Source of the DNA: Lysobacterales bacterium
GTDB taxonomy: Bacteria > Pseudomonadota > Gammaproteobacteria > Xanthomonadales > SZUA-36
Assembly (NCBI GenBank): GCA_029859645.1
Contig: JAOUCS010000014.1
Coordinates: forward strand, 1 to 44,386
DNA length: 44,386 bases
Direction of reading: 5' to 3'
The notes beneath the pieces are model-generated. The model had not been told where the DNA came from. It saw nothing but the letters and a program-made list of their open reading frames with translations, and searched no databases. Positions 14,239 through 39,736 of the stretch are shown piece after piece. Position 1 is the stretch's first letter. Each line of letters opens with the position of its first letter. The position numbers were made by a program, and so were the translations under genes.

Positions 14239-14241
14239 TGG

Positions 14242-15933: not shown

Positions 15934-16828
15934 TCGAATCTTCCCTGATTCCTGTAAATCGGCTGATCTTATCGATCAATTCCGGCCCGCCGTCTTCAAG
16001 CACATAGTGTCCGCAGTCCGGAAAACGCAGCACCTGGGCTTCCGGAAAGTACTCCAGCCACTGGTTGAGGAAGGGGGTGTCGAACACGAAATCCCTTTCT
16101 CCCCATGCGATCAAACACGGTTTGTTCTGCAGCAAGTGTAATCGCTCGGCGGTATTTATCAAAATATCGTAACCGGGATCGGTTTCCTTCAGCGGGATAT
16201 CCTGGACAAATTTCAGGGTCGCGATGCGGTTAGCAGGGGTGTCATAGGGTAGTGTATAAGCTTGCCGGATTTCCCTGGAGACCGGTTTCTTGAAGGCCAC
16301 ATGCGCCGCAATTCCGGAAAAAGCATTAAAACGGGTGACCAGGAAAGCACCGATGGCAGTGTCTCTGACCAGGCTCAGGGCAGGGGGCATTTTCTTGTCT
16401 TCCGGTAACGGAAAAGCAGCAGTGTTCAGAACCACCATCCGGCTGATCAGGTCAGGGTGCTGCACCGCCCAGCCAAAACCGATCATCCCTCCCCAGTCGT
16501 GTACCACCAGGGTCAGTGGCTGGTCGATACCAAGCTGCCTGACCAGGCTGTCGAGATCCTCGATGCGGCTCTTCAGCCGGTAATCATAGTGGGTATCATC
16601 CGGCTTGTCCGAAAGGCCGCAGCCCAGGTGGTCCGGCACGATGCAGCGGAACTGGCCGCTCAATGCCCTGACCAGGTTGCGGTAATAGAAGGACCAGGTG
16701 GGATTGCCATGCACCATGAGAACCACGGGCGCATCACGTGGGCCCTCGTCCAGGTAGTGCATGCGCTGGCCACGAATCTCCAGATAGTGGCTCGAAAACG
16801 GGTAAAGATGGACGGGCGGTTTTACCAA
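15893..16828 (-). CDS. oleB: OleB, beta-lactone decarboxylase
   Basis: The 311-aa alpha/beta hydrolase resembles haloalkane dehalogenases. Nucleophile Asp111 sits in VVHDWGGMIGFG, HGNPTW (40-45) supplies the oxyanion region, and the late His lies in CGHYVLED. In Ole pathways this enzyme removes CO2 from the beta-lactone to leave a cis-olefin. A stand-alone reading would call it a dehalogenase; its place between oleA and oleC makes OleB far more likely. The start is TTG, since the next ATG (residue 23) would remove family-conserved sequence. It begins 7 bases after the oleA stop. Confidence 0.92.
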   Translation of the reverse strand: MVKPPVHLYPFSSHYLEIRGQRMHYLDEGPRDAPVVLMVHGNPTWSFYYRNLVRALSGQFRCIVPDHLGCGLSDKPDDTHYDYRLKSRIEDLDSLVRQLGIDQPLTLVVHDWGGMIGFGWAVQHPDLISRMVVLNTAAFPLPEDKKMPPALSLVRDTAIGAFLVTRFNAFSGIAAHVAFKKPVSREIRQAYTLPYDTPANRIATLKFVQDIPLKETDPGYDILINTAERLHLLQNKPCLIAWGERDFVFDTPFLNQWLEYFPEAQVLRFPDCGHYVLEDGGPELIDKISRFTGIREDSNDGYASGNNLEHG

Positions 16829-16835
16829 ACGACTG

Positions 16836-17852
16836 CTACCAGACGACTTCCGCCATAGCGCAGTTCAGACCGGAGCCGATTCCCAACAGCGCGACTCGGT
16901 CGCCCTTGTTGATTTTACCCAGCTCGGCTGCCTTGGCCAGAACGATGGGAACGGAGGCCGGGCCGATGTTGCCCATCTCCGGGTAAATCGCATGGACCTT
17001 TTTGGGGTCCAGACCCAGCAGGTTGACCAGCGAGTCGGTGTGAACCTTGCTGACCTGGTGAATGACGAACTGGTCCAGTTCGCTGGCCACCCAGCCGAGC
17101 GCTATCCTCGCGGCATTGAAAGTCGTCGACGCCAGCTTGAGTCCCTCGCTCAGCAGGATGCGGGTATCGGTCATCATCTGGTTCATCTGCCCACGGCACA
17201 GCTTGTTAAATTCCGTGGCCGCGCGGGAAACGCTGCCCAGGTAAGGATGGCCCTCCGGAGCGAGTTCACGCCGTGCCATGACCATGGCCGCTGCGCCTGA
17301 GCCCAGGGTAAGCGATGCGAATTCGGCACGGAACTGCTCTTCGCCCATTTCCGGGTCCAGCATGCGCTCAATGGTCGCTTCGGTGATAGGCCGGCTTGAT
17401 TCCCCGTCAACTACCAGTGCGTACTCCACTTCAGCCCGCTCAATCATTCGCGCAGCGATATCCATGCCGTTCATGAACGCCAGGCAGGCATTGCCCACAT
17501 CGAAATTCAGACAGTTTTCATTCAGATTCAGGTTGCCGTGAACGATACAGGCCGTTGAAGGTTCCAGGTAATCCCTGCAGACGGAGGTATTGATGATCAC
17601 CCCTATTTTCTGCCGGTCTATGCCGGATTCATCCAGCGCCTTTTCCGCTGCGAGCGTTGCTGCATCCGAGGGCGACGTTCCTTTTTCCCAGAAGCGGCGC
17701 GCGCCGATGCCAGATACTTCCTCGAGCAGGTCGTTCCTGACGCCGAGGCGGTCAAGCGTCGGCTTCAGTTTTGTCTCGATTTCCTTGGAAGTGACGCGGA
17801 TTGGAGGCTCAACCGCCGCGAGCGATTGAATGACAACATGCTTGAATTTCAT
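16836..17852 (-). CDS. oleA: OleA, head-to-head acyl-CoA condensing thiolase
   Basis: This 338-aa thiolase-fold enzyme joins two long acyl-CoAs into a 2-alkyl-3-ketoacid. Catalytic Cys123 lies in GNACLAF, with Glu97 (YLEPS), His265 (VIHQVS) and Asn295 (GNIGPASVP). These match the Cys143, Glu117, His285 and Asn315 of Xanthomonas OleA with one constant offset of 20. That separates it from FabH, which lacks this Glu. It leads the oleABCD row, and a PPTase gene is divergent across a 104-bp intergenic region. The expected end product is a long internal alkene or polyene in membranes. Confidence 0.95.
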   Translation of the reverse strand: MKFKHVVIQSLAAVEPPIRVTSKEIETKLKPTLDRLGVRNDLLEEVSGIGARRFWEKGTSPSDAATLAAEKALDESGIDRQKIGVIINTSVCRDYLEPSTACIVHGNLNLNENCLNFDVGNACLAFMNGMDIAARMIERAEVEYALVVDGESSRPITEATIERMLDPEMGEEQFRAEFASLTLGSGAAAMVMARRELAPEGHPYLGSVSRAATEFNKLCRGQMNQMMTDTRILLSEGLKLASTTFNAARIALGWVASELDQFVIHQVSKVHTDSLVNLLGLDPKKVHAIYPEMGNIGPASVPIVLAKAAELGKINKGDRVALLGIGSGLNCAMAEVVW

Positions 17853-17956: not shown

Positions 17957-18736
17957 ATGAATAAGGGCATTACAAAAACGCTGTCAGCCACGCCGGAGAG
18001 TTTCAGTCTCCGCCGGATTCCCCTGGATCGGCTGGTGCCCCCATCCTCGGGGGAGGTTCACCTCTGGTTTCTCGACCTGGGCGAACTGTCGGGTTCGTTG
18101 AGCGCTGCCCTGGGCGGTCGCTGCGACAATCCGTCGCCTGCCACACCGGGGCAATTGCTCATGGCCCGCCGTTTTTACCTGCGTTTATTGCTGGGGGCTT
18201 ATCTCGGCTTACCGGGCAAAGCGGTAAAAATCAATCGTAAGAACCGCGGTAAGCCCATTCTCGACGCAACTGTTCACGAGGAAGAAATCCACTTCAGCAT
18301 GGCCAAGAGTGAAGACAAGCTATTGATCGGGATTTCTGCGTCCAGCCATATAGGCGTTGATCTGGAACGTGCCGGGCGGCATGCGCGCAATGCGATGGGT
18401 GTTGCGCGGCGTTATTTCAGCGCGGACGAGGCAGCCGCACTGGCCGCGTTAGATGCGAGCCTCCGGGATGAGGCTTTTCTTCGTGCATGGGCCTGCAAGG
18501 AATCTGTGGTCAAGGCGTCCGGGATGGGTATCGCGAACCAGTTCCACCGGTTTTCGGTGCAGACAGATATTAACAGGCAGGCCGCGGTCCTCGATTTTGA
18601 TGGCAAGGGTCCCGGCGACTGGTCGCTGGCGCTGGTGCAGCCCTCCGACACGTTTCTCGGAGCGCTTGCCATTGAAGACAGGCTGACCAGCCTCAAGACC
18701 TTTAAACTCGTTGCCGCCGGGAATCAGCCAGGCTAG
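17957..18736 (+). CDS. 4'-phosphopantetheinyl transferase, Sfp/AcpT type
   Basis: This 259-aa enzyme should move the phosphopantetheine arm from CoA to a carrier protein serine. Motifs are NRGKPIL (96-102), IGVDLE with metal ligand Asp135, and FLRAWACKESVVKASG with W178-x3-E182. The usual F-N-L-S-H-S motif reads F113-S-M-A-K-S118, so the conserved His that contacts CoA is a Lys. No carrier protein or synthase gene is in the window. It is divergent from oleA and followed after 2 bases by a PLD-type lipoprotein gene. The role in the ole pathway, if any, is unclear. Confidence 0.87.
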   Translation: MNKGITKTLSATPESFSLRRIPLDRLVPPSSGEVHLWFLDLGELSGSLSAALGGRCDNPSPATPGQLLMARRFYLRLLLGAYLGLPGKAVKINRKNRGKPILDATVHEEEIHFSMAKSEDKLLIGISASSHIGVDLERAGRHARNAMGVARRYFSADEAAALAALDASLRDEAFLRAWACKESVVKASGMGIANQFHRFSVQTDINRQAAVLDFDGKGPGDWSLALVQPSDTFLGALAIEDRLTSLKTFKLVAAGNQPG

Positions 18737-18738
18737 TC

Positions 18739-20532
18739 ATGTTACGGACCCTGTTCCTGCTGTTCGCAGCAATGCTTCTGCTACCGGCCTGTTCCCTCTC
18801 GGAAAAAAAGGTGGAGCAGGTTGATGCCAGGATTAACGCAACGCGTGAAATCGGACTGAATTGCTTTCCCCGGGACAAGGATCGCTGCGCAGTACCTTCA
18901 CCTTTATTGGAACTGGGGCGCCAGGCCCAGCACGATGGCAGGCACCGGCTTACATTGGTGGAATACGGTGAGGACGCGTTGAAACTGCGGATTCACATGA
19001 TCCGGGCGGCGCGGCGCACGGTCGAATTGCAGAACTTCATTCTGAGGGGCGACGACACCGGTGTCCTGATCCTGAATGAAATGCTCGAAGCCGCCCGGCG
19101 TGGTGTTAAGGTTCGCCTGCTGCTGGACCAGATGTTTTCATTCTCCGATGTCGAATACCTGGTTCGCCTGACGATGGCACATAGCAACTTCGAAATACGC
19201 TTTTACAATCCTTCGTTTTACAAGGCAAAAATGGCCAATCACGACTGGATTAACGGCATGGCGTGCTGTTTCAGGAGGGTCAACCAGCGGATGCACAACA
19301 AGCTGCTGGTTACGGATGACCTGGTCGGTCTTGTCGGCGGCCGGAATATAGCGGATCGCTATTTCGACTTTGACACCAATTACAATTTCAAGGACCGGGA
19401 TGTGGCCGTATTCGGAAATACGGTGCCGGAAATGAGGGAGTCGTTTGACTGGTTCTGGAACGGCCCCAAGACGATACCGGTCCAACACCTCAGGGACGTT
19501 GCGGCCGAATTACTGGAAACGGATGATCTGGTCCGGCTGGGTCCTTTCGAGGCGGCACCGAGATTGTTGCCTATCCTGGACCTGGTCAATGATCCGCAGC
19601 TCATGGCCCGGTTGTTTGTCGAGCCGGCCTATACCGTAAAGCGGCTGGAGTACTTTTCGGATGCGCCCCGAAAACATTCCGTCGAGGAGACTCTGCCACA
19701 GGAGGACACGACCGGCGAGCTTTACGACGTGCTGATCTCTGCAAGACATTCGGTAATAATCCAGTCGCCCTACATGGTGCTGTCGAAGCGGGTCCGGGAC
19801 CTGGTGGCTAACCTGCGGCTGAAAAATCCCTTCATAGAGCTGATTTTTTCCACCAACTCGCTGGCTTCAACCGATGCGGACACGGTGTATGCCAACACCC
19901 ACAGGCACAAAAAACGCTATGTTGATGGCTTGCGCTTCCAGATGTACGAGTTCAAGCCTTACCCGGGAGATGCACCCGAATTCTTTCCGCGCTGGGCCCA
20001 GTTAATGGAGGAAAAGAAGCAGGGTGTAGAGAGTAAATCTGTTGTTTCCGGGGACAATTCCGTCATTCCGATGCCTGCACCGCGTGTTGGGTTACATTCA
20101 AAATCATTCGTGGTGGATGGCAAGGTGGCGATGATAGGCTCGCACAACTTCGACCCGAGGTCGGAAGGGTTCAACACCGAAAACGGCCTGATCATTTATG
20201 ACGAGGTGTTTGCCCGCAAACTGGAAGAACTGATACGGCGGGACATCGAGCCGCAAAACAGCTGGATTGTGGCGATGAAACCCAAAGGCGAACAGAAGGA
20301 GACGGCCCTGGCAGATGTTCCCAAGACCATTCCCCAGTTCAAACCCTGGTCCTATGGCTCCACTTCGGTTTACGAACTTGCACCAGGAAAGGAACCAAGA
20401 GTGCCTTCATCACCGGATTTCTATGAACATTATTATTCGGTCGGTGCTTTTCCCGAGGTGGTCAGAACCAGGCGCCAGGCGACCGTGATCTTCCTCAGTT
20501 CGTTTTTCTTCTTCCTGGAACCGATACTCTGA
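18739..20532 (+). CDS. Phospholipase D-family lipoprotein (cardiolipin synthase ClsC-like)
   Basis: This 597-aa protein has a lipobox (LLPAC, Cys18) and two complete HKD motifs: HNKLLVTD (His186, Lys188, Asp193) with GGRN after it, and HSKSFVVD (His453, Lys455, Asp460) with GSHNFDPRSE. Paired HKD motifs build one active site for phosphatidyl transfer or hydrolysis. Its nearest known relatives by motif are the YmdC/ClsC cardiolipin synthases, but the lipobox places it in the periplasm or outer membrane. It lies between the PPTase and a membrane zinc peptidase in one transcript direction. A hydrophobic stretch near the end (IFLSSFFFFLEPIL) is unusual. Confidence 0.88.
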   Translation: MLRTLFLLFAAMLLLPACSLSEKKVEQVDARINATREIGLNCFPRDKDRCAVPSPLLELGRQAQHDGRHRLTLVEYGEDALKLRIHMIRAARRTVELQNFILRGDDTGVLILNEMLEAARRGVKVRLLLDQMFSFSDVEYLVRLTMAHSNFEIRFYNPSFYKAKMANHDWINGMACCFRRVNQRMHNKLLVTDDLVGLVGGRNIADRYFDFDTNYNFKDRDVAVFGNTVPEMRESFDWFWNGPKTIPVQHLRDVAAELLETDDLVRLGPFEAAPRLLPILDLVNDPQLMARLFVEPAYTVKRLEYFSDAPRKHSVEETLPQEDTTGELYDVLISARHSVIIQSPYMVLSKRVRDLVANLRLKNPFIELIFSTNSLASTDADTVYANTHRHKKRYVDGLRFQMYEFKPYPGDAPEFFPRWAQLMEEKKQGVESKSVVSGDNSVIPMPAPRVGLHSKSFVVDGKVAMIGSHNFDPRSEGFNTENGLIIYDEVFARKLEELIRRDIEPQNSWIVAMKPKGEQKETALADVPKTIPQFKPWSYGSTSVYELAPGKEPRVPSSPDFYEHYYSVGAFPEVVRTRRQATVIFLSSFFFFLEPIL

Positions 20533-25671: not shown

Positions 25672-26355
25672 ATGAAGAAAGGTCTAATCATTTTGCTGGT
25701 GTTGGTGGCTTTAGCTGGTGCAGCTGCCTGGTATTTCGTCAGTTACCGCATGGATTCGGTGATCCAATCGCAAATCGAATCGGCAGCGACGCAATCTTTT
25801 GGCAGTCGGGTCACCGTGGGCGCGGTAAAAACCGATATTCAGGGCGGATCGTTGAGCATCTCCCAGGTAACCGTTGCCAACCCGCCGGGCTTCAACAACA
25901 AGAACGCCTTCACACTCAATAATATTAAAGCGGTCGTGGATTACAAAACATTCGATATCAAGCGGGTTGTCATCGATAATCCCGAGATCATAATCGAAGA
26001 AATGGGTGGTAAAACCAATTTCGATAAGATGCTGGCAGAGATCAACGAAAGTAGTTCAGAGCCAAAGTCAGCTGATGGAGATAGCAGCGAAGCCAAGACC
26101 GAACCCACCATAGTGATTCATCATTTCCGGATGAACGAGTCGCGGGCCGCGTTCGAATCAAAGTCGATGGATAAATATACCGACCTGAAGGTTGATGCCA
26201 TTGAATTGAACGATGTACGGGGAACGCCCTCAGAAGTAGCCGATATCATTGCCAGGGAAGTGATCTCGGAAATCACCAAGGAAGCGGGTATTGAGTTACT
26301 CAAGGCCAAGGCTTCCGACAAAATTAGCGAGTTTTTTGGCAAAGACAAGGACTGA
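25672..26355 (+). CDS. AsmA-like periplasmic protein with N-terminal anchor
   Basis: This 227-aa protein starts with one membrane helix (about 4-24) and then has a segment typical of AsmA-like proteins (VTVGAVKTDIQGGSLSISQV, NPEIIIEEMGGKTNFDKM). A Ser/Glu/Lys-rich stretch (about 120-145) breaks the domain, and the end is lysine-rich and probably helical. AsmA-family proteins help move phospholipids towards the outer membrane, but most are far longer, so this is a minimal form or a different family. pldA follows after 8 bases, which fits a role in envelope lipids. Confidence 0.65.
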   Translation: MKKGLIILLVLVALAGAAAWYFVSYRMDSVIQSQIESAATQSFGSRVTVGAVKTDIQGGSLSISQVTVANPPGFNNKNAFTLNNIKAVVDYKTFDIKRVVIDNPEIIIEEMGGKTNFDKMLAEINESSSEPKSADGDSSEAKTEPTIVIHHFRMNESRAAFESKSMDKYTDLKVDAIELNDVRGTPSEVADIIAREVISEITKEAGIELLKAKASDKISEFFGKDKD

Positions 26356-26363
26356 TACCTTCA

Positions 26364-27386
26364 ATGAAATTTGAAACCTGCGGCCGCCACTGGGCGGCCG
26401 TCTGTATTTTGGTGGCTGTAAGTTCGGTGACGTTCATGATCGCGACTCCGGTTTCAGCTGCATCCTCGGGCCTGGACCAGGAGTGCGTCATGAGCCTGGC
26501 CGAAACGGCGGATGATTCCACAACGCTGGCGGAGATCCGAAGTCGATGCAAGCAGGCTGAAGAGCCAGCGGATCAGGCTGATGAAGCGGTTGTGAAAACA
26601 GCGCCCAGCCCCATAGACAAGCGGCTCGCGGCTGAACGTGAAGCCGCAGCCAGCCCTTACAGTATCCTGGCCCATCGTCCCAATTACTTCCTCGTAGCGG
26701 CCTACAACTGGGAGGGCTGGGATTCCGAGTTTGAAAACAAAAACGTGGAAAGCCAGTTTCAGCTGAGCCTGAAAGTACCGCTGGCTGTGGGCTTGTTCAA
26801 GGACCGGATGGACGTCTACGGCGCTTATACCAACCGGTCATTCTGGCAAATGTACAACAGCGGTGATTCCGAACCGTTCAGGGAAACCAATCATGAACCG
26901 GAGCTATGGGTACAGTTTCGCAACGACTGGAAAGTCTGGGGGCTGACCAATTCGATCAATACCGTGGGATTTTCCCACCAGTCAAACGGGCGCTCCGGTG
27001 AATTCTCCCGCAGTTGGAATCGCCTTTATGCCTCGTTTCTGTTTGAAAGAGGCCGTTGGACTTACGATCTCAAGCCCTGGATCTGGGTTTCAAAAGACAA
27101 GGAGTCCAGTGACAACCCTGACATCGATGACTACATGGGCTACGGAGAATTTCGGGTCTCTTATGGTAAAGACAAACACGTGGTTAGCGGCATGTTCCGC
27201 AATTTGCTGGAAAGTGGTTTTGACAAGGGCGCGGTGGAGCTCAGCTGGAGTTTCCCGGTGTTTGATTACCCCTACCTGCGTGGTTACGTGCAGTACTTCT
27301 ATGGCTATGGCGAGAGCCTGATCGACTACAACCACAAAGTAAACCGGCTGGGGATTGGGATCTCGGTAACCGACTGGCTCCATTAA
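26364..27386 (+). CDS. pldA: Outer membrane phospholipase A (OMPLA)
   Basis: The 340-aa barrel enzyme hydrolyses phospholipids that reach the outer leaflet. After a signal peptide and a charged linker, the barrel carries YTNRSFWQMY, FRETNHEPEL and the active site FSHQSNGRS...SRSWNR. The triad is His205, Ser207 and Asn219, with the same spacing as His142, Ser144 and Asn156 in E. coli OMPLA. The N-terminal linker of about 70 residues is longer than in E. coli. It sits behind the AsmA-like gene and before a terminator-like hairpin. Confidence 0.95.
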   Translation: MKFETCGRHWAAVCILVAVSSVTFMIATPVSAASSGLDQECVMSLAETADDSTTLAEIRSRCKQAEEPADQADEAVVKTAPSPIDKRLAAEREAAASPYSILAHRPNYFLVAAYNWEGWDSEFENKNVESQFQLSLKVPLAVGLFKDRMDVYGAYTNRSFWQMYNSGDSEPFRETNHEPELWVQFRNDWKVWGLTNSINTVGFSHQSNGRSGEFSRSWNRLYASFLFERGRWTYDLKPWIWVSKDKESSDNPDIDDYMGYGEFRVSYGKDKHVVSGMFRNLLESGFDKGAVELSWSFPVFDYPYLRGYVQYFYGYGESLIDYNHKVNRLGIGISVTDWLH

Positions 27387-30050: not shown

Positions 30051-30086
30051 TATTGGAATGTGGAAGCAATCCGAACGCATGGAAAT

Positions 30087-30950
30087 ATGCGCCCAATTCT
30101 CATCTTAATGCTCTTGATCATGCTGCCTTCTGTGCTGCAGGCACAGGCCGTTGCGCAGGAACCGGAACCCGCGAGGCAGGTTCACTGGGCGATGGGCGCG
30201 TTTTTCGGAACCGGGTGGTACCAGGTCGAAAAGAACCGTTCCGTGTTCATATTTCGCATTCCGCCACGCCAAACCATCAGCCGGGCGAGGTTTGACTCGG
30301 AAGGCCAGCGGAAACTGGGTATTGAAATTCAGTATCCCCTGTCATTTGGTCTCCACCAGATGAATGATATCCCTGATTTTATCGATTTCGAAAACTACGG
30401 CACGGTTACTTTCACGCCGGGTGTGCAGGTTGAAGTCCCGGTCAACTCCAAATGGTCGCTCAGGCCCTATGCCCACCTGGGTGGTGGCTACGAAGTGGAT
30501 TCGGGTAAATGGGCCGGAATCTGGTATGGCGGCATCAAGAGCCGGTACCTGTTGGGCGAAAGTGAAAAGCTCCGGTGGAATTTACTCAATGCAGTATATT
30601 ACGCCGGTTACAAACCTGAGTACGAAGAGCGCGGCCGTTATGGCTCCGTGATGGGCGGGCTGGAATTCAACCAGCCACTGGGCAAGCTGGAACTGGCAGG
30701 CGACCCGTTACGTCTGAACTGGCATGTGACTTACAATTACCTGTTCGACAAGCTGAATTTCCATCTCGATGAAAACCGGGTAGAGTCGATCCAGGACCAG
30801 TGGGAGATTGGCCTGGCGCTGGCGAAGGAGAGCAAACCCATCAAGATCTGGTTCATGAGTTTCGAACACATCGGCCTGTCCTACAAGCGCAGTTCAAACG
30901 GACATTACCGGGCTATTTCATTCAATTTGCGGTCACCGTTTACTTACTGA
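30087..30950 (+). CDS. Putative outer-membrane beta-barrel protein
   Basis: I do not recognise a named family for this 287-aa protein. It has a signal peptide (about 1-21, ending VLQAQA) and many alternating strands with aromatic ends, such as WSLRPYAHLGGGYEVDSG and RLNWHVTYNYLFDKL. It ends in phenylalanine-threonine-tyrosine, as barrel proteins often do. It is therefore probably an outer-membrane barrel of 10-12 strands. The ATG at 30087 restores the signal peptide; a GTG at 30060 is less likely. The next gene starts 1 base after its stop, tying it to the EEP and PLD genes. Confidence 0.72.
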   Translation: MRPILILMLLIMLPSVLQAQAVAQEPEPARQVHWAMGAFFGTGWYQVEKNRSVFIFRIPPRQTISRARFDSEGQRKLGIEIQYPLSFGLHQMNDIPDFIDFENYGTVTFTPGVQVEVPVNSKWSLRPYAHLGGGYEVDSGKWAGIWYGGIKSRYLLGESEKLRWNLLNAVYYAGYKPEYEERGRYGSVMGGLEFNQPLGKLELAGDPLRLNWHVTYNYLFDKLNFHLDENRVESIQDQWEIGLALAKESKPIKIWFMSFEHIGLSYKRSSNGHYRAISFNLRSPFTY

Positions 30951-30951
30951 G

Positions 30952-31848
30952 ATGCGCTTCCCGGAAAGCTATTTACGGATGTATTTACTGGGTGTCACGC
31001 TGCTGATACTGAGCTGGGCAGGGGTTGCAAAAGGCGCCTGCGCCGCAGGCAAAGAGCCGTTGAAAGTCGTGAACTCTTCAATTCTGAGAGTCGTGACCCT
31101 GAACATGGCGCATGGCCGCAAAGACGGCAGAAATCAGATGTTGCTGAAAGGCGAGACCATTCGAAACAACCTGGTCGAGCTGGCTGGCCTGCTGGACCGT
31201 GCCGACGCCCACGTTATTGCTCTGCAAGAGGCTGATGCGGAGTCTGCCTGGAGCGGCAAGTTCAATCATGTTGATTTTCTGTCGGAAAATACAATTTACA
31301 GCTGCAATTTTCATGGAATTCACGCCAGCAACAGGGTGTACGATTTCGGCACAGCCTTATTATCGAAATACGAGTTCCAGGGCGCGTTTGCGCATAGTTT
31401 CGTTCCATCCAAACCAACCACCACCAAGGGCTTTTCGCTGGCGGCGCTGGATTGGAATCCTGCGGCGGCGCCGGCGGAACCGGTCAGGGTAAAGTTTGCT
31501 TCTGTGCACCTGGATTTTTCACGACGTTCGGTCAGAAGGTCGCAGATTGACGAGATGGTTCGCGTGCTGGCGGGAATCGAAGGCCCGCTGGTTATCATGG
31601 GCGATTTCAACACCGATTGGCAGACTGAGGATTCATCCCTAAAATATTTTGCTGAGCAACTGGATCTGACGGTGTTCGAACCCCATGCCGAGGGGTTTGC
31701 CACTTATGGGGACAAAGGGGCGAGGCTCGATTGGATACTGATATCCAAGCAGCTCAAATTCAGCAAATATGCTGTATTTCCAGACGTGGTTTCCGATCAC
31801 TATGCAGTAGCCGCCGAAATCGGCCTGAAGGAATCAGATGATGATTGA
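30952..31848 (+). CDS. Secreted endonuclease/exonuclease/phosphatase-fold enzyme
   Basis: This 298-aa EEP-superfamily hydrolase has an N-terminal hydrophobic signal (about 9-30). Its catalytic motifs are VVTLNMAHG (Asn), VIALQEAD (Glu, metal), HLDFSRRSVRRSQI, VIMGDFNTD (Asp/Asn), and the C-terminal RLDWILIS and SDHYAV (Asp-His). Members cleave phosphodiesters in DNA, in inositol phosphates or in sphingomyelin. Export excludes a repair role. It starts 1 base after the barrel gene and overlaps the PLD gene by 11 bases, so the three are probably translated together. Substrate unknown. Confidence 0.85.
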   Translation: MRFPESYLRMYLLGVTLLILSWAGVAKGACAAGKEPLKVVNSSILRVVTLNMAHGRKDGRNQMLLKGETIRNNLVELAGLLDRADAHVIALQEADAESAWSGKFNHVDFLSENTIYSCNFHGIHASNRVYDFGTALLSKYEFQGAFAHSFVPSKPTTTKGFSLAALDWNPAAAPAEPVRVKFASVHLDFSRRSVRRSQIDEMVRVLAGIEGPLVIMGDFNTDWQTEDSSLKYFAEQLDLTVFEPHAEGFATYGDKGARLDWILISKQLKFSKYAVFPDVVSDHYAVAAEIGLKESDDD

Positions 31849-33685
31849 TCCGTTGAAAACAGCACGCCAGGTCTCATTGCTCGCGGTTCTGATGCTGCTG
31901 GCCTCATGTGCGGGCAAACCTGCAAAAAACGATTGTCCGGCGGGCACCCAGAACCTGCCAGGTTGTCCGCCGCTCAGCGCGGTTGACGATCCCGAAATCA
32001 ATGAGATTTACGCGGACCGGACCTGGCTGCGGGGGAGCGATATCGATGTCGATCTGATTGAGCTGGGCAAGCAGGCAGAAATTCCGATTCAGCATGCCAG
32101 GACCAAGTTTCTTGGGCCAACAGATGAGGCGGCGCTAACCTCCCTGGCGGTCAAAATATGGATGATCGAAAATGCCGAGCACACCATTGATTTTACCTAT
32201 TACATTTTCAAAACGGACCTGATCGGCCAGGCCATGCTGGGCGCCCTGTGCAACGCGGTACGGCGTGGTGTCGATGTGCGCGTGACGGTTGATTCGGTGG
32301 GCTCGATCAGCGGTGGGTCACACACACCATTGCGAGCGTTGCAAACTTGCAGCGACCGTGCCGGTTTCATGCGCAACGCAGAGGGCCAACTGACGACCCG
32401 CAAAGCCCGCGTGCAGGTCGTGGTTTTCAACGCACTTTCGAAAGTCAGTAATCCGAACCGGCGTTCGCATGACAAATTGCTGGTCAAGGACGGCAGTTTT
32501 GAAGGCAAGACGGCGGTAATCACAGGTGGCAGAAACATTTCCCTGGATTATTACGGAATCCAGGCGGATGGCTCCGCGGATCCAGACCCTTTTCGCGATG
32601 CTGAAATTCTGCTCCGATCGGCCAGGGCGGCAGATGACCAAGGCTATTCGGTGGGTAAAGTCAGTGAGATCTATTCGACACTGCTGTTCCTGTTGCCGTT
32701 TAACAAGCAAATCAAGCCGGGTACCAGCGATCACGCCAAGCAGCAGTTCTGGAAGTCGCGCAAGCGGGCACAGGGCGCCCTGGAAACGCTCAAGGGATAC
32801 GACTATTTCAGTCCGCATTACGAAAGAATGGATGAGTACATGAACACCGGCTTCCATGACTCGCAAGTGCGGCTGGCCCACGAACTGGGCAACCTGACGG
32901 ACTCCAAAGTAGTGACTGATGTAGAGGGTAATCAGAAGCGCAACCCAAATTCGATCATGACGTTGCTGGCCCAGATTGGCGACGAGAGACCGGATCTGAA
33001 GTCTGTCAGGATCGTATCACCCTACCTGTTCCTGGCGGAGTACAAGAACAGTAAAGGCGACCTCGTCAAAGACGAGGCAGTGGCTTTCAGGGAATGGCTG
33101 GACAACCATCCGGACACGACCCTGGAAATCATCACCAATTCAGTTCTGACTTCGGATAATTTTCCGGCACAATCGGTGATCGATATGGAGACAGCACCCC
33201 GTTTGCTGCTGCCCCCTGAGGTCAGGGAGGAATGGATCAGTCTCAAAGGCGCGGATGAGATGACATCGCAGCTGGTTAATAGCGAGAAGTGGCAAGAACT
33301 GGTGAACAATCCTCGGTTGAAAGTCTATGAAACAGGCCGCCTTGATTCGGTCAAGCTGGGGCAGGGTGACCGGAACTACGGCAAACTGCATGCCAAGTAT
33401 TTTCTTTCAGAAGACGTCGGTTTTATTGGCACCACCAACTTCGATTACCGCTCCCGCCTGTATAACAATGAAATGGGCTTTTTCTTTAAGGGTCCCGACC
33501 TTGCCAGCGATGTGCATGAGAGTTTCGACCAACTGGTATCCATTTCCTACCTTTGGGGTTCTCCGGAATGGTTGCAATTGCGCAAAGAAGTAATGGGCCT
33601 GAAAGGAATGAAGGGCAATACCACCAAGAGCCAGCGGGGCTGGTACAAGTTTTTCAGGAATTCCGGGATTATCTGGCTGCTTTAA
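31838..33685 (+). CDS. Phospholipase D-family lipoprotein, second paralogue
   Basis: This 615-aa lipoprotein has a lipobox LLASC and two HKD regions. The first is canonical, HDKLLVKD (His211, Lys213, Asp218) with GGRN. The second reads HAKYFLSED, with Glu525 where Asp is normal, followed by GTTNFDYRS. It shares overall layout with the lipoprotein at 18739 but is clearly diverged. It could be a phosphatidyltransferase, phospholipase or nuclease acting in the envelope. Its start overlaps the EEP gene by 11 bases. Confidence 0.85.
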   Translation: MMIDPLKTARQVSLLAVLMLLASCAGKPAKNDCPAGTQNLPGCPPLSAVDDPEINEIYADRTWLRGSDIDVDLIELGKQAEIPIQHARTKFLGPTDEAALTSLAVKIWMIENAEHTIDFTYYIFKTDLIGQAMLGALCNAVRRGVDVRVTVDSVGSISGGSHTPLRALQTCSDRAGFMRNAEGQLTTRKARVQVVVFNALSKVSNPNRRSHDKLLVKDGSFEGKTAVITGGRNISLDYYGIQADGSADPDPFRDAEILLRSARAADDQGYSVGKVSEIYSTLLFLLPFNKQIKPGTSDHAKQQFWKSRKRAQGALETLKGYDYFSPHYERMDEYMNTGFHDSQVRLAHELGNLTDSKVVTDVEGNQKRNPNSIMTLLAQIGDERPDLKSVRIVSPYLFLAEYKNSKGDLVKDEAVAFREWLDNHPDTTLEIITNSVLTSDNFPAQSVIDMETAPRLLLPPEVREEWISLKGADEMTSQLVNSEKWQELVNNPRLKVYETGRLDSVKLGQGDRNYGKLHAKYFLSEDVGFIGTTNFDYRSRLYNNEMGFFFKGPDLASDVHESFDQLVSISYLWGSPEWLQLRKEVMGLKGMKGNTTKSQRGWYKFFRNSGIIWLL

Positions 33686-33736: not shown

Positions 33737-35194
33737 TCAGTTCAGTTCCCGGCCCAGCTTGACGACTTCCTCGACCATCAGGTCGAAATCCTCGAAGCGG
33801 CTGCGGTGGTTGGAAATTGCGACGCGCAGGCAGTAGTTGCCCTGCAGGGTCGTATATGAAGGCGCAGCGACGCCTCCCTGCTGGAGCTGTACCAGCAGTT
33901 TCCTGTTCAACGTGTTCAGGGATTCCTGATCCAGGCCGCCTGGATTGTACCGGAAGCAGACGATATCCAGCCCGATAGGGGCCGTCCTTTCCAGTTCCGG
34001 GGCAGCTTCGATCAGTTCGCCCAGGTAATGCGCCTGTTCGACATTGCGGGCGATCATCCGGCCAAAGCGATCCAGGCCATGTTCCTTCACCGACATCCAG
34101 ACTTTCAGTGCGCGAAACTGGCGGGTCAGTTGTAATCCGTAATCGCTGAACCAGAGACTGCCGGAGGCCATGCCTCCGCCCTCGACATCGCGTTGCAGGT
34201 ATTCGGGCACCAGTGAAAATGAATCGGCATGGGTCGCTGCATTGCGAACGATCACGCAGCCGGCCTCGAACGGAATGTGCATCCACTTGTGCAGATCGAG
34301 CGCGATGGAATCTGCACGGTCCATGCCCTTGAGCAGGGGTTGCACGTTATCCGCCAACGTGGCGACTGCGCCAATAGCGCCATCAACGTGGAACCACAGG
34401 CCCTCCTCGTTACAGAAGTCGGCAATCGCTTCCATGTCGTCTATGGCGCCGGTGTTGATCGTGCCGGCGGTCGCGATCACGCAGAAAGGGATCATGCCGG
34501 CTTCCCGGTCTGCGCGGACCTGGTCCCGCAGTGCATCCATATCAATGGTGTAATCGGCATTGACCGGCACCTTGCGCAGCCCCTGGGAACCCAGTCCCAG
34601 GGTTTCGATCGCTTTTTGATTACAACTGTGAATTTCGCTCGATGCATAGGCCGTGAGCTGGCCCGGAGCAGCCAGCACCCCTTTGCGCCGCACATCGTAG
34701 CCGCAGTTTGAGTTTCGGGCCACGGTAAGCGCGGTGAAATTTGCCATCGACGCACCGCTGGTCAAAAGTCCGCTGGCGGATGTCGGAAAACCCATCAATT
34801 CAATCAGCCAGCTGATTACCTGCTGTTCCACCCGCGGCGCCGCGTGGTTGATGCCACCCACGTTTGGATTCAGTACCGCTGCCAGGAAATCCGCCATCGC
34901 GCCCATCACGGTTCCGCTGCCCATGTACCAGGCCCAGAACCGGGGGTGATTGGTGTGCAGATTGTACGGCATGATGTTCGCCAGGAACTCGTCGTACACG
35001 TCGGCCGGGTCAGAAGGGTCTGCTGGAGCAGGTTCCTTCAGATATTGGGAAATGTCATCCGGGACCGGGGTCCAGACGGGTCGTTCCCCGCAAGACTGGA
35101 TGTAATCGAAAGCGTCTTCCACCATGCGGTGGGCCAACTCACGCATCTCATCCCAGTTTTCCGGGTCCAGTGTCTCGAACTTTTCCGTGGTCAT
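33737..35194 (-). CDS. Group II PLP-dependent decarboxylase (aromatic amino acid decarboxylase-like)
   Basis: The 485-aa enzyme shows the family pattern: [11 protein letters not shown] (110-120), [22 protein letters not shown] (stacking His189), [10 protein letters not shown] (Asp271 contacts the pyridine nitrogen) and [14 protein letters not shown] with PLP-binding Lys303. Members decarboxylate L-DOPA/tryptophan, glutamate or related acids, or catalyse aldehyde synthesis; the sequence does not fix the substrate. It is a lone gene, convergent with the PLD gene and divergent from the molybdenum hydroxylase genes. Confidence 0.9.
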
Positions 35195-35275
35195 CAGCCT
35201 GGCTTATTTTCCATTCAATTTATCTCGTGTCGCTCGCCGCGATTGTCCTTGGCTGTCTATAATTCGGACAGGATC

Positions 35276-35743
35276 ATGATTGAATTTCACGTCAACAATC
35301 AACCGGTAAGCTTTTCAGGCGATGAGGATACACCATTGCTCTGGGTTCTACGTGATCACCTCAGTTTGACCGGCACCAAGTTTGGCTGTGGCATCGGCAG
35401 CTGCGGAGCCTGCACAGTTCACATCGATGGCCAGGCCAGCAAGGCCTGCACCCGTAAAGTTTCGTCGGTGACCGGCAAGCGGGTCACAACCATTGAAGGC
35501 CTGGCGACTCCTGATGGCGGCCTGCATCCCGTGCAGCAGGCATGGATCGATGCAGACGTCCCGCAATGCGGTTACTGCCAGGGTGGGCAGATCATGGCGG
35601 CGATAGATTTGCTGAATGAGATTCCAGAGCCGAGCGATGCAGACATCGCGCGGAAGATGCGGAATATCTGCCGGTGCGGGACCTACGTGCGTATCCGCAA
35701 AGCGATCCACCGCGCTTCGGCGACGATGCGCAAGGGGACATAA
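35276..35743 (+). CDS. Molybdenum hydroxylase [2Fe-2S] subunit (IorA-like)
   Basis: This 155-aa small subunit binds two [2Fe-2S] clusters. The N-terminal plant-type set is Cys38, 43, 46 and 58 (CGIGSCGAC and KAC), and the C-terminal set is Cys98, 101, 132 and 134 (QCGYCQGGQ and CRCGTY). It passes electrons from the molybdenum site in the large subunit. The ATG at 35276 follows AGGA and gives the normal start. A TATAAT at 35258-35263 may be the -10, without a good -35. The large subunit follows after 2 bases. Confidence 0.94.
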
Positions 35744-35745
35744 GC

Positions 35746-37986
35746 ATGTTGCGGCGCACCTTCCTGGTTGGCGGTTTGACGGCATCAGGCGGTTTCCTGC
35801 TGGGTATTCCGGCGGTAAAAGCTCTGACTGGTGAAGATGCGGGTAATGGTGCAGGTGAAGCAGGCGGCAAGATTGGCTTTTTCGTTGAGATCAACCCGGA
35901 CAACACCGTGACCATAGGAGTGGCCCAGCCTGAAATCGGGCAGGGCGTGCGTACGTCCATGCCGATGCTGGTCGCAGAAGAACTCGATGTCGACTGGGCC
36001 AGCGTGTCGGTCAGGCAAATGCCGCTGGGCATCGTCAAGACTGCAGATGGTTTTACCTGGAAATACGGGGGGCAGGGTGCCGGGGGCAGCACCGCCGTCA
36101 CGGGAAACTGGGAATTTTTGCGCGAGGTCGGCGCAACCGCTCGACAGATGCTGATCAGCGTGGCAGCGGCGCGCTGGGGAGTCGAGCCAGGCGCCTGCCG
36201 CACTGAGTCAGGTGAAGTCATCTGTGACGCGTTGGGAAAACGCTTTCGCTACAGCGACCTCGCGACGCAGGCGGCAAAGCTGCCCGTGCCCGAGCAGAAG
36301 CCGTCTTTCAAAGAGCCCTCGGACTACCGCATCATCGGCAAGCCCACCGGCGTGGTAGATATCCGCGATATCGTCACCGGCAAAACCAGGTTTGGTATTG
36401 ATACCGAAGTATCCGGGATGCGCTATGCGGTCATCCAGCGCAGCCCCTACCTGGACGGCACCGTCAAGTCATTCAACGACAGTAAAACCCGAAAAGTCCC
36501 GGGTGTCGTCGATGTGTTCAAAATCGATGGACCCGGGCCGGATGAGCCTTACCTGATCCTGGCCAGCGGAGTGGCCGTGGTAGCAACCTCCACCTGGGCT
36601 GCAATGCAGGGCAGAAAGGCCCTGGAAATTGAATGGGACAAGGGACCACATCAACAGGAGAGTACTGAGTCTTTCTGGCGCCAGGCAGAAAAGCTGCTTG
36701 CGGACACTGGCCAGGTGGTCCGGAACGATGGAGACCTGGACGCGGCGCTGAAGCAGGCCAGCAAGGTGGTTACAGCGCGCTACGAAGTGCCGTTCGTGAA
36801 CCATGCGCCGATGGAACCCCAGAATTGCTTCGTGCATGTGGAAAAAGATAAAGCCCGGGTTATTGCGCCCACCCAGTCGCCTTCAGGAGCCAGCAGGGCC
36901 GTTGCGGCCGTGACCGGGCTGCCCCGTGAGCACATCGAAGTTGAAATGACACGGGTCGGGGGTGGCTTCGGCAGGCGCCTGACCAACGACTACGTCGCCG
37001 AGGCGGCGATGATTTCTCAGCGGATCGGCGCAGCGGTCAAATTGCAATGGAGCCGAGAGGACGACGTCAAACACGATTTCTACCGCCCCTCGGGCCTGCA
37101 TGAAATGAAGGCCGGCCTGGATGCTTCCGGCAAAGTGACCGGCTGGACACAGCGCCTGGCCAGCGCCGGAAAATACTACCGTCGCCCCAACGTAGCCCCG
37201 GAAGAGCAATACGCGGCGGAGCTCTACATCGACGATTTTCCTGCACAGATTGTCGAAAACCTGCGAATTGAATGGTTCGAAGTTCAGTCCGGCATGCCGC
37301 GCGGTTCGTGGCGGGCGCCGGCACATACGGCGAATGCTTTCGTGGTGCAGTCTTTTATCGATGAAATTGCGCATGCCAGCGGACAGGACCCGTTGCAGTT
37401 GCGGCTTGAGCTCTATGGAGAAAACAGGGATCTCGAATACGGTCAGCACGGCGGCCCGGTGTTTAACCCATGGCGTCTTTCGCGGCTGCTGAAGCATGTC
37501 GCCGAACGAATTGATTACAAGGCAAGGCGGCCTGGTAGAAAGGGGGTTGGGGTCGCGTCACATTTTACCTTTGGGGGCTACGCGGCGCACGCAGTAGAGC
37601 TGGAAGTTGATGATGAGGGAAGCCTTAATATCAATCGAATCGTAGCTGCCGTGGACTGTGGCATCGCGGTTAACCCCCTGGGCGTTGAAGCGCAACTGGA
37701 AGGAGGCACCATCGATGGACTGAGCACCGCGCTCAACCTCGAAATTACAGTCGAAGAAGGGCAGGTGGTCCAAAGCAATTTCCATAACTACAGGGTTGCC
37801 CGAATGGCGCAGATGCCTGCAGTACTCGAAACACATATCTTGCCATTTGGCGACAAACCGACGGGCATGGGTGAGATGGGGCTGCCCAGCCTGGCGCCAG
37901 CCCTGACCAACGCCATTTACAATGCCTGCGGTGTGCGTATCCGAAAACTTCCTGTCCGGGATCAACTGAAGCAAGCGCTTGCCTGA
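35746..37986 (+). CDS. Molybdenum hydroxylase large subunit, Tat-exported (IorB-like)
   Basis: This 746-aa protein begins RRTFLVGGLTASGGFLLG, a Tat-type signal, so it is probably exported folded with its cofactor. Family motifs are GQGVRTSMPMLVAEELDV, MEPQNCFVHV, GGGFGRR, SGMPRGSWRAPAHTANAF and GMGEMGLPSLAP, the last containing the catalytic Glu. This layout matches isoquinoline 1-oxidoreductase-type two-subunit hydroxylases, which lack the FAD subunit of xanthine dehydrogenase. They hydroxylate N-heterocycles or oxidise aldehydes. No cytochrome partner is in the window. Confidence 0.93.
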   Translation: MLRRTFLVGGLTASGGFLLGIPAVKALTGEDAGNGAGEAGGKIGFFVEINPDNTVTIGVAQPEIGQGVRTSMPMLVAEELDVDWASVSVRQMPLGIVKTADGFTWKYGGQGAGGSTAVTGNWEFLREVGATARQMLISVAAARWGVEPGACRTESGEVICDALGKRFRYSDLATQAAKLPVPEQKPSFKEPSDYRIIGKPTGVVDIRDIVTGKTRFGIDTEVSGMRYAVIQRSPYLDGTVKSFNDSKTRKVPGVVDVFKIDGPGPDEPYLILASGVAVVATSTWAAMQGRKALEIEWDKGPHQQESTESFWRQAEKLLADTGQVVRNDGDLDAALKQASKVVTARYEVPFVNHAPMEPQNCFVHVEKDKARVIAPTQSPSGASRAVAAVTGLPREHIEVEMTRVGGGFGRRLTNDYVAEAAMISQRIGAAVKLQWSREDDVKHDFYRPSGLHEMKAGLDASGKVTGWTQRLASAGKYYRRPNVAPEEQYAAELYIDDFPAQIVENLRIEWFEVQSGMPRGSWRAPAHTANAFVVQSFIDEIAHASGQDPLQLRLELYGENRDLEYGQHGGPVFNPWRLSRLLKHVAERIDYKARRPGRKGVGVASHFTFGGYAAHAVELEVDDEGSLNINRIVAAVDCGIAVNPLGVEAQLEGGTIDGLSTALNLEITVEEGQVVQSNFHNYRVARMAQMPAVLETHILPFGDKPTGMGEMGLPSLAPALTNAIYNACGVRIRKLPVRDQLKQALA

Positions 37987-37991
37987 GCTGC

Positions 37992-38020
37992 CTGACCGGA
38001 AGGTTGCCGTAGTTTATAAT
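37992..38020 (+). promoter_or_regulatory. Promoter for the xdhC-mocA pair
   Basis: A perfect -10 TATAAT (38015-38020) lies 17 bp after CTGACC (37992-37997), which matches -35 at four of six positions. It sits between the large subunit stop and xdhC. The maturation genes may thus be made independently of the enzyme genes. Confidence 0.6.
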
Positions 38021-38055
38021 TTCAATTCTTTCAGCACGTCAACAAAGGACTGAAT

Positions 38056-39132
38056 GTGCATCTTGGAATTCCTGCCCTGCTAGATTTCTATCGCGCGCAC
38101 CGGGAAGAAGATTCACTGGTATTGGCGACCATTGTCGGTACACAAGGCTCTACTTACCGTAAACCCGGTGCAATGATGTTGATCAGCCGGGAGGGGCAGT
38201 ACGAAGGTATGATTTCCGGAGGTTGCCTGGAAGGCGATCTCCTGCACCATGCGGCCGGCGTTTTTGAGTCGGGTGAAGCCGCGTTTGTCACCTACGACAT
38301 GCATGCCGATGAGGAACTGGTCTGGGGGCTTGGGCTTGGCTGTGACGGCGTTATTCATCTGCTGCTTCAGCGACTTGATAAGAAACGCGGTTTTGGCTTT
38401 CTGAAGCAGTTGTACGCTTCTCACAGTGCCAGGCGGGCGGTGTTACTCGCATTGGTGACTGAAACCGATAAAGGCTTGCCCTGTGGGGCTTTCGGGCTGC
38501 TTGACAATGCTGATATATCAGACGGAGAGCCTGTCATTCTGGAAATCCTGCAGTCTCTGGCGACACCATGGCCGCAGTGGCGAGTGAATCGGACGTCGGT
38601 TGGACTGGAGAGCGAATCGGCCGGGCTGATCCTGGTGCAGATGCCGGCCAGAACCCGGGTATTGATCTGCGGCGGCGGACCGGACTCAGTGCCGTTGGCC
38701 CGGGTGCTTTCAGAACTGGATTGGGAGGTCCAGGTAGTGGATCATCGGCCGGCTTTTGCCCGGCAGGAGCGATACCCGTCAGGGTGCCTGGTGACCCGCG
38801 CAAATCCCTCACTGCTCAGCGAAGTGGTGAACCTGCAGGACGTTGACGCGGCGGTGATCATGAGCCATCACCTGGAAAACGACGCCCGGTATCTTGAGCA
38901 GGTGTCCGCTTTCAATATTCCCTATATCGGTGCATTGGGCCCCAGGGCCAGGAAAAAGCGCTTGCGCGAGATATCCGGACGGCAGGACGTCGAAATTTAT
39001 GGTCCGGCAGGACTGGATATCGGGGCGGAACTGCCGTCATCGATTGCCTTGTCCATAGCCGCCGAAATTCACGCGGTTCTGAATCAGCGAAATGGCTGTT
39101 CGCTGACGCTGAAGACCGATGCCCAAGCATAA
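38056..39132 (+). CDS. xdhC: XdhC/CoxI-family molybdenum cofactor maturation factor
   Basis: The 358-aa protein has the N-terminal XdhC/CoxI domain (GSTYRKPGAMMLI, ISGGCLEGDL, LGLGCDGVI) and a C-terminal Rossmann-like domain (RVLICGGGPDSVPLA). XdhC-type proteins bind the molybdenum cofactor, aid its sulfuration and deliver it to hydroxylases. The start is GTG with AAAGGA 7 bases upstream. It follows the large subunit and overlaps the nucleotidyltransferase gene by 14 bases. Confidence 0.92.
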   Translation: MHLGIPALLDFYRAHREEDSLVLATIVGTQGSTYRKPGAMMLISREGQYEGMISGGCLEGDLLHHAAGVFESGEAAFVTYDMHADEELVWGLGLGCDGVIHLLLQRLDKKRGFGFLKQLYASHSARRAVLLALVTETDKGLPCGAFGLLDNADISDGEPVILEILQSLATPWPQWRVNRTSVGLESESAGLILVQMPARTRVLICGGGPDSVPLARVLSELDWEVQVVDHRPAFARQERYPSGCLVTRANPSLLSEVVNLQDVDAAVIMSHHLENDARYLEQVSAFNIPYIGALGPRARKKRLREISGRQDVEIYGPAGLDIGAELPSSIALSIAAEIHAVLNQRNGCSLTLKTDAQA

Positions 39133-39736
39133 GCTGGCGGCGATTCTGCTCGCCGCAGGCTGTTCCAGCCGCCTTGGCCGGGCCAAGCAACTTGTGATTC
39201 ACCACGGTGAAACACTGGTGAGGCGCTCGGCGCGACTCTTGCTGGAGTTGCAACTGGATGTCGTCGTGGTAACCGGATGTGAGTCAACGGCGGTTGTAGA
39301 GAGCCTGGAAGGGTTGCCTTTAACGGTTGTACACAATCCCGAATGGGAACAAGGGATGGGTACATCTATTGCGTGCGGGGCGAAACATATCGCGCCGGCC
39401 AGTGAAGGTGTCCTGGTAATGCCCATTGATCTCTGGCGACTCGGCATAAAGGACCTTTTAGCCATTATTGAATCATGGGAAGCTGATATATCAAGTGTAT
39501 GTGCAACTTCATGGTTTGAGGATAAAACCCTTAATTACGGTCCACCCAGCATATTCCCATGTGATTTAATACACGAATTACAATGCATGCATGGAATTAA
39601 GGGTGCAAAAGTGTTGATCGACAAAGAACGGCAGCGACTCGAGCTCATTCACAGACCCAACGCGGCTTGGGACCTGGACAGCCCCGCGGACCTGCAGCAA
39701 CTACTCAGTCAGAATGAGCGCTGCCCCAGTAATTGA
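39119..39736 (+). CDS. MocA-like molybdenum cofactor nucleotidyltransferase
   Basis: This 205-aa enzyme has the NTP-transferase loop LAAGCSSRLGRAKQL (11-25) and a metal-binding Asp in VMPIDLW. MocA-type enzymes usually have a CD-x-P form there, so the site is slightly unusual. It probably makes the cytosine dinucleotide form of the cofactor for the upstream hydroxylase. Its middle third (39481-39600) is only about 37% GC by hand count, well below its surroundings, although the frame is open. Its 3' end overlaps the convergent methyltransferase by 32 bases. Confidence 0.85.
   Translation: MPKHKLAAILLAAGCSSRLGRAKQLVIHHGETLVRRSARLLLELQLDVVVVTGCESTAVVESLEGLPLTVVHNPEWEQGMGTSIACGAKHIAPASEGVLVMPIDLWRLGIKDLLAIIESWEADISSVCATSWFEDKTLNYGPPSIFPCDLIHELQCMHGIKGAKVLIDKERQRLELIHRPNAAWDLDSPADLQQLLSQNERCPSN

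Follow-up and report, generated by a model that had tools for sequence, protein, structure and literature searches.

On a contig of a Lysobacterales bacterium (GenBank assembly GCA_029859645.1, contig JAOUCS010000014.1, positions 1 to 44,386, hereafter the window, which is contig C178 of the 3.84-Mb, 255-contig genome G000), three consecutive genes encode an outer-membrane beta-barrel, an exported protein of the endonuclease/exonuclease/phosphatase (EEP) fold and a lipoprotein of the phospholipase D (PLD) superfamily (Table 1). We tentatively propose, with slightly less than even confidence, that the EEP and PLD proteins are an exported pair that remodels outer-membrane phospholipids, to which an accessory 12-stranded barrel is coupled here. 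Gene neighbourhoods show EEP and PLD as a unit, and we are highly confident that this unit is a functional one. A first-pass annotation, made from the sequence alone, had described the triplet with its 1-base gap and 11-base overlap, and had called its members an unrecognised barrel, a secreted hydrolase and a lipoprotein; the coordinates of the open reading frames (ORFs) confirm this arrangement.

Table 1. Features of the three-gene locus in window coordinates
Feature	Position	Strand	Evidence
12-stranded outer-membrane beta-barrel, unnamed family, 287 aa	30087..30950	+	ORF; predicted model
Barrel/EEP spacer, 1 base	30951..30951	+	sequence
Putative exported EEP-fold metal-dependent phosphodiesterase/phosphatase, 298 aa	30952..31848	+	PF03372; invariant residues; predicted model
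EEP/PLD frame overlap, 11 bases	31838..31848	+	sequence
PLD-superfamily lipoprotein, 615 aa, ClsC-related, second HKD motif without Asp	31838..33685	+	PF13091; lipobox; hhalign

The barrel gene is read from an ATG, an alternative GTG upstream at 30060 being possible, and the overlap between the EEP and PLD genes shrinks to 8 bases if the second ATG is taken as the PLD start. The 1-base gap between the barrel and EEP genes is also found in G003, G008 and G009 when the matching ATG is chosen (G numbers denote genomes, C numbers contigs and L numbers further loci). Upstream of the barrel lies a divergent GNAT gene (ATG at 30006 assumed) and downstream of PLD a convergent decarboxylase gene (33737-35194). 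Therefore, the three genes constitute a closed unit by layout, although promoter and terminator scans of the locus returned sites no more numerous than in shuffles.

The pairing of EEP with PLD was followed in a family set of 39 genomes (window included), which is all that the search covered, and in a class sample of 369 genomes; in the family set, EEP orthologs were accepted at E below 1e-60. Within this set the barrel occurs in 25 genomes, an EEP ortholog in 11 and a full-length PLD ortholog in 10, and EEP adjoins full-length PLD in 10 of 10, the EEP gene of G002 being cut by a contig end. The co-occurrence of PLD and EEP in the family genomes gives a Fisher p of 7e-9 to 2e-7, according to the treatment of PLD fragments. 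The PLD counts omit pieces cut by contig ends (G008, G028 and G031), the broken remnant of G024 and, in the class sample, a fragment on C26 of G450. The class sample adds three further genomes with PLD, all three with EEP alongside: G450 and G560, which belong to one genus, and G507. Among the named-genome matches listed, found via EEP, PLD adjoins EEP in L163 (Arenicellales, divergent), while one gene lies between the two in L164 and L166; counted over the near-complete EEPs of at least 39% identity among these matches, PLD adjoins 3 of 7 (the partial L176 and L177 were left out). Other PLD clades are also found beside EEPs, namely E. coli clsB and, in L168, a ClsA-type gene directly upstream. 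The sequences show that PLD is always accompanied by EEP and that both proteins keep core catalytic residues and have export-type N-termini, with a lipobox in PLD. The remnant in G024 (C73 35937-36250) is the C-terminal part of a PLD gene, broken in two pieces, in a genome without EEP ortholog.

The export and enzyme class that had been assigned to EEP and PLD at first pass are borne out by domain matches, a hydrophobic N-terminus and a lipobox. EEP matches PF03372 with 61.9 bits against a cut-off of 24.5, and residues N51, E93, H186, D218, N220, D282 and H283 are invariant in an alignment of 23 rows; we take these Asn, Glu, His, Asp-x-Asn and Asp-His positions to serve the metal site and catalysis. 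The predicted model (pLDDT 89.8) has the EEP fold, and its best structure match is 4ruw, an uncharacterised bacterial EEP (Z 28.1), followed by mannosyl-6-phosphatase (25.0), human neutral sphingomyelinase (24.6), TDP2 (24.1) and B. cereus sphingomyelinase (22.9). In the profile search three uncharacterised EEPs rank first, and beta-hemolysin and B. cereus sphingomyelinase are matched at E 5e-7 to 3e-6. The N-termini of the EEP orthologs are hydrophobic as judged by eye, and a clear lipobox is present in 4 of the 18 orthologs examined (G003, L164, L166 and G037). An apparent internal TGA in the G037 EEP gene was found to be the gene's own stop, overrun by the alignment, and 290 residues are read in an open frame; this sequence is absent from alignments A2, A4 and A5.

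PLD matches PF13091 in two stretches (65.9 bits, cut-off 27). Its lipobox, LLASC24-A25, was recognised by eye without a predictor, and C24 and A25 are invariant in 10 rows; among six further orthologs, that of L163 is without a clear lipobox. Between the PLD profile and E. coli ClsC, hhalign (99.35%, E 6.6e-21) gives an alignment of 378 columns, which takes in both PLD domains and most of the PLD length; with E. coli ClsB the alignment is limited to 106 columns (E 1.6e-6). When 37 PLD proteins are placed in one tree, the 16 orthologs are set off as a single clade (support 100/100, branch 4.1), separate from the ClsC clade as well as from ClsA/ClsB, although long branches meet there, as a warning of the tool indicates. 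The first HKD motif is canonical (HxKx4D at 211), whereas the second, HAKYFLSE at 518 in the window protein, keeps His and Lys only. The score against the NCBIfam equivalog TIGR04265 (bac_cardiolipin) is 53.8 bits, below the cut-off of 290. Because of the separate clade and the relaxed second motif, the protein is named here a ClsC-related enzyme and is not filed as a cardiolipin synthase. A defence system was considered and rejected: the matches of PLD to the DISARM DrmC models are weak (33.2 bits, cut-off 133; PADLOC at most 28 bits) and reflect the shared PLD domain, and neither the barrel nor EEP matched any PADLOC model. A search for plasmid carriage of PLD gave zero matches. The window holds a second PLD-superfamily lipoprotein (18739-20532, 597 aa), in which both HKD motifs are intact.

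The barrel belongs to a family that is unnamed in Pfam and NCBIfam. It consists of a signal peptide of about residues 1-22 (by eye), a short helix at 34-40 and then strands, and an AlphaFold model built from 27 relatives shows 12 strands after the helix with a mean pLDDT of 81.8, in agreement with the barrel nature supposed at first pass. The claim that the protein was unrecognised also stood, since the window barrel matched zero Pfam or NCBIfam families, and a known porin or enzyme was rejected as its identity because its sequence matched nothing in Pfam, in NCBIfam or among the solved structures. Other family members gave some weak matches, which were not counted as membership (PF13505 at E 0.0075 at best, 2 of 27; NF049866 at E 0.0036, 1 of 27). 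In fold the model comes closest to the translocator domains of autotransporters, namely NalP (Z 20.4, rmsd 2.6 over 213 residues), AIDA-I (19.9), EspP (19.7) and EstA (18.6), followed by the COG4313 channel (15.9), KdgM (15.5) and FapF (15.3); the lipid A deacylase LpxR (3fid) stands well under the autotransporters with Z 12.9. PF03797, which we take to be the autotransporter accession, has no match in the window barrel and is not among the families of the 27 members at E up to 1. Only about 12 residues separate the signal peptide from the helix, which leaves the barrel without a passenger. Gly, Pro, Trp and Tyr account for all 13 invariant residues, and no catalytic set was seen among them. 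The barrel is not OMPLA, as there is no PF02253 match and hhalign gives a probability of 0.4% against the window's own OMPLA; OMPLA is also not among the 50 structure matches listed for the model, which excludes nothing. A second copy of the barrel family, 34% identical, occurs in the same genome beside a histidine kinase gene (L107 3714-4589).

Does the barrel belong with the pair? The triplet was looked for at 36 barrel places, window included (the partial G031 C164 and the weak G598 C97 were left out), and the pair adjoins the barrel in seven genomes in three gene orders: barrel-EEP-PLD in G000, G003, G005, G009 and G008, where the contig ends after EEP, EEP-PLD-barrel in G033 and barrel-PLD-EEP in G037, in which the barrel and PLD genes overlap by 4 bases. 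The barrels concerned occupy three separate places in the barrel tree. By a simple random-placement estimate, with our own count of five lineages, adjacency in three of the five would arise by chance with a probability of 2e-9 to 4e-8. The triplet thus recurs, and the failure to co-occur in other genomes that would have refuted the first-pass reading was not found, but the barrel is not obligatory: at 29 of the 36 places, 4 of them at contig ends, the pair was not seen, and six genomes have the pair without an adjacent barrel (G027, G029, G030, G450, G560 and G507, although in G507 the contig stops on one side), while G002 ends at the contig edge. In G507 and G560 the barrel search gave no match, and G006 and G007, of the same genus as the window, have the barrel without the pair. 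The barrel is therefore accessory; that it is a true partner in these seven genomes seems to us somewhat more likely than not. A single ancient linkage with later rearrangements and losses is also possible.

Other genes near barrels are partly of a related kind. In G033 and G450 the gene next to the barrel encodes a PLD lipoprotein that falls in the E. coli ClsC clade. OMPLA genes occur as well: that of G023 ends 12 bases upstream of the earliest start possible for the barrel, that of G435 adjoins the barrel gene convergently, and that of G006 is reached after one intervening gene. If the pair is counted as such, a phospholipid-type enzyme gene is within two genes of the barrel at 11 of the 36 places. 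Sulfatase genes were seen near barrel-family members in L105 (6206-7819) and L103 (4201-7707), with signal-like N-termini by eye, and L093 (1-308) holds a cut sulfatase end two genes from a member. In L164 (6699-8659) a 280-aa barrel-like protein directly follows PLD-EEP and is followed by a DUF3604 gene; as a relative of the window family it was rejected (hhalign 0.3%), so that it is only a curiosity.

How might the three proteins act? PLD would reside in the outer membrane and shift or remove phospholipid headgroups, either by hydrolysis to phosphatidate or by transphosphatidylation as in ClsC and ClsO. The soluble EEP may act on the same lipids or on the product of PLD, in a phospholipase C-like or phosphatase step. 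The barrel would be the membrane partner, which could hold or pass the enzymes or open access to outer-leaflet lipids. A phospholipid, rather than a nucleic acid, is in our estimation the likelier substrate. Extracellular DNA, the cell's own phospholipids and foreign lipids had all been entertained at first pass; the sequence evidence now appears to lean toward the cell's own outer-membrane lipids, based on the kinship of PLD with ClsC and on the ClsC-clade PLD or OMPLA genes beside some barrels. An extended reading, in which ClsC-clade lipoproteins, OMPLA and further exported hydrolases of other genomes would also be served by the barrel family, is as a whole quite doubtful.

Several observations weigh against the proposed remodelling of phospholipids by a barrel-coupled pair. 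The fold matches of EEP tie among lipid enzymes, phosphatases and nucleases, and therefore the fold does not name the substrate. In the profile search mannosyl-6-phosphatase (E 5.6e-6) is about level with the sphingomyelinases, and the sphingomyelinase SmcL (0.0012) is no better than a LINE endonuclease (about 1e-3). The Asp of the second HKD motif is missing in 13 of the 16 PLD orthologs and present in 3, while both motifs are intact in 21 of 21 PLDs used for comparison, and the nearest solved PLD-family structures by sequence, in weak matches of about 50 residues, are a nicking-joining enzyme, a phospholipase and the PLD3/PLD4 exonucleases. At class level the PLD ortholog is not adjacent at 10 of 14 EEP places (window included), two of these 10 being cut by contig ends. 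As to the barrel, its co-occurrence with EEP alone across the 39 genomes gives p = 0.06. Its OMPLA and ClsC-clade neighbours were noticed post hoc and not predicted, and other barrels are near sulfatase, DUF885, DUF3313, HlyIII, DUF808 or kinase genes, most neighbours being unannotated. With such varied neighbours, and the pair unseen at most places, the barrel may serve many exported enzymes or none.

These points leave room for other explanations. The EEP-PLD pair could be a real unit and the barrel an unrelated neighbour sharing a favourable site, as the many barrel places without the pair, the pairs without adjacent barrel, the barrels without pair in G006 and G007 and the p value just given would suggest. 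However, the variety of gene orders (three) and of tree positions (three) in which the barrel adjoins the pair, the 4-base barrel-PLD overlap in the rearranged G037 and the low chance estimate argue for partnership, and we consider a mere neighbour improbable. Nutrient scavenging is unlikely; here phospholipids or glycerophosphodiesters from outside would lose their phosphate or headgroups to the enzymes, and the products would be taken up through the barrel as a pore. Such scavenging would suit exported hydrolases that stand together with a barrel, the sulfatases, another scavenging class, near some barrels (G024, G031) and the resemblance of the barrel fold to the small porin KdgM and the COG4313 channel; however, PLD is kin to ClsC, a lipid synthase, and no phosphate transporter or glycerophosphodiesterase family was found among the 28 Pfam-scanned window proteins, the other window genes and most neighbours elsewhere being unscanned.

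Could the pair instead degrade DNA or RNA outside the cell or in the periplasm, with the barrel as port? Both superfamilies include nucleases, the EEP model aligns with TDP2, and the PLD profile has weak matches to the nicking-joining enzyme and PLD3/PLD4 (E 2e-5 to 0.015). However, the homology of PLD with ClsC spans most of its length, the EEP genes of L168 and E. coli adjoin cardiolipin synthase genes, and the mature window enzymes, EEP and PLD, are acidic (pI 5.7 and 6.0), although pI exceeds 7 in 7 of 23 EEP rows; a nuclease pair has, in our view, a low probability. Attack on foreign membranes by surface-displayed secreted lipases, for competition or host damage, is very improbable. The EEP profile does match bacterial sphingomyelinases including beta-hemolysin (E 5e-7 to 1e-3), but the nearest genes are GNAT, MOSC, MscS and decarboxylase, with no obvious immunity or secretion gene among them (not searched further), and ClsO was once misread as such a lipase, according to passages of PMC12846801.

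The superfamilies of EEP and PLD, and an EEP-PLD operon as such, are already known. In E. coli ybhP-clsB-ybhN an EEP gene and the gene of a PLD-superfamily cardiolipin synthase overlap by 4 bases on one strand, EEP and PLD genes are likewise adjacent on one strand in the window, and YbhP aligns with the EEP profile at 28% over 210 columns. In passages of PMC9241728 ybhP-clsB-ybhN is treated as the clsB operon, and YbhP is given no role there. YbhP, however, has no hydrophobic N-terminus, ClsB is an inner-membrane enzyme (passages of PMC12846801) of another PLD clade than the window PLD, and the third gene of the E. coli operon encodes YbhN (PF03706), whereas the neighbours in the window are GNAT, barrel and decarboxylase genes, with no YbhN. 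Consequently, the suggestion that no system with this set had been described holds for the triplet and not for the EEP-PLD operon. No description of the barrel-EEP-PLD triplet or of the function of YbhP was found in the open-licence literature, which is a weak negative; as far as this search shows, an exported EEP-PLD pair whose PLD forms a separate clade, and its unnamed barrel, are undescribed.

Another parallel for PLD is ClsO of Acinetobacter, a ClsC-like lipoprotein described in passages of PMC12846801 as a surface-exposed outer-membrane cardiolipin synthase that, as the discussion there states, was formerly misread as a lipase attacking foreign membranes or the host. Both are ClsC-related lipoproteins of the PLD superfamily, and by this analogy the window PLD would be expected at the outer membrane. 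It differs from ClsO, which is not among the 37 proteins of the tree, in its own clade, in the second HKD motif without Asp and in the accompanying EEP; no EEP or barrel partner of ClsO is named in the passages of PMC12846801. The barrel, for its part, shares with the beta-domains of autotransporters (NalP, EspP, EstA) the 12 strands and the helix before strand 1, but unlike type Va autotransporters it has no sequence match and its chain is without passenger. Slam translocons are similar in that a barrel gene adjoins a lipoprotein gene, an arrangement that passages of PMC5449769 report for 185 of 353 Slam loci, whereas the window barrel has no DUF560 or TPR match and its cargo would not be TbpB-like. 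OMPLA (PldA), whose gene neighbours the barrel in G023 and G435, is an enzyme of phospholipids in the outer membrane, but the window barrel itself is distinct from it.

Further genes of the window may be mentioned. At 25672-27386 a small AsmA/TIGR03545-like gene lies 8 bases upstream of the OMPLA gene, a gene pair found again in G006 and G009. AsmA-like proteins transport phospholipids to the outer membrane (passages of PMC12846801), and phospholipid genes therefore crowd this stretch. The gene of the second PLD lipoprotein is directly preceded by a 4'-phosphopantetheinyl transferase gene (17957-18736), a two-gene set also present in G011, and is adjoined by four minus-strand genes (13249-17852) with 3-beta-HSD, AMP-binding, alpha/beta-hydrolase and ACP-synthase-III domains, presumably the domain set of OleABCD long-chain olefin synthesis. 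At 34844-39736 there are molybdopterin oxidoreductase-type genes, for a 2Fe-2S subunit (by sequence) and a large subunit with MoCoBD domains, and XdhC/CoxI and MobA-like genes come after them.

Until the report of ClsO (2026), primary phospholipid synthesis was thought to be restricted to the inner membrane, as stated in passages of PMC12846801. If the phospholipid-remodelling explanation is true, the exported EEP-PLD pair, together with its barrel, would be a second means of altering phospholipids chemically at the outer membrane. By analogy, the window pair looks like an exported counterpart of the ybhP-clsB pairing, and it could give a meaning to this orphan pairing, in which EEP would complete or undo what a PLD-type synthase does. 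Display of the enzymes by the barrel, if it takes place, would moreover be a new way to the surface for a lipoprotein enzyme.

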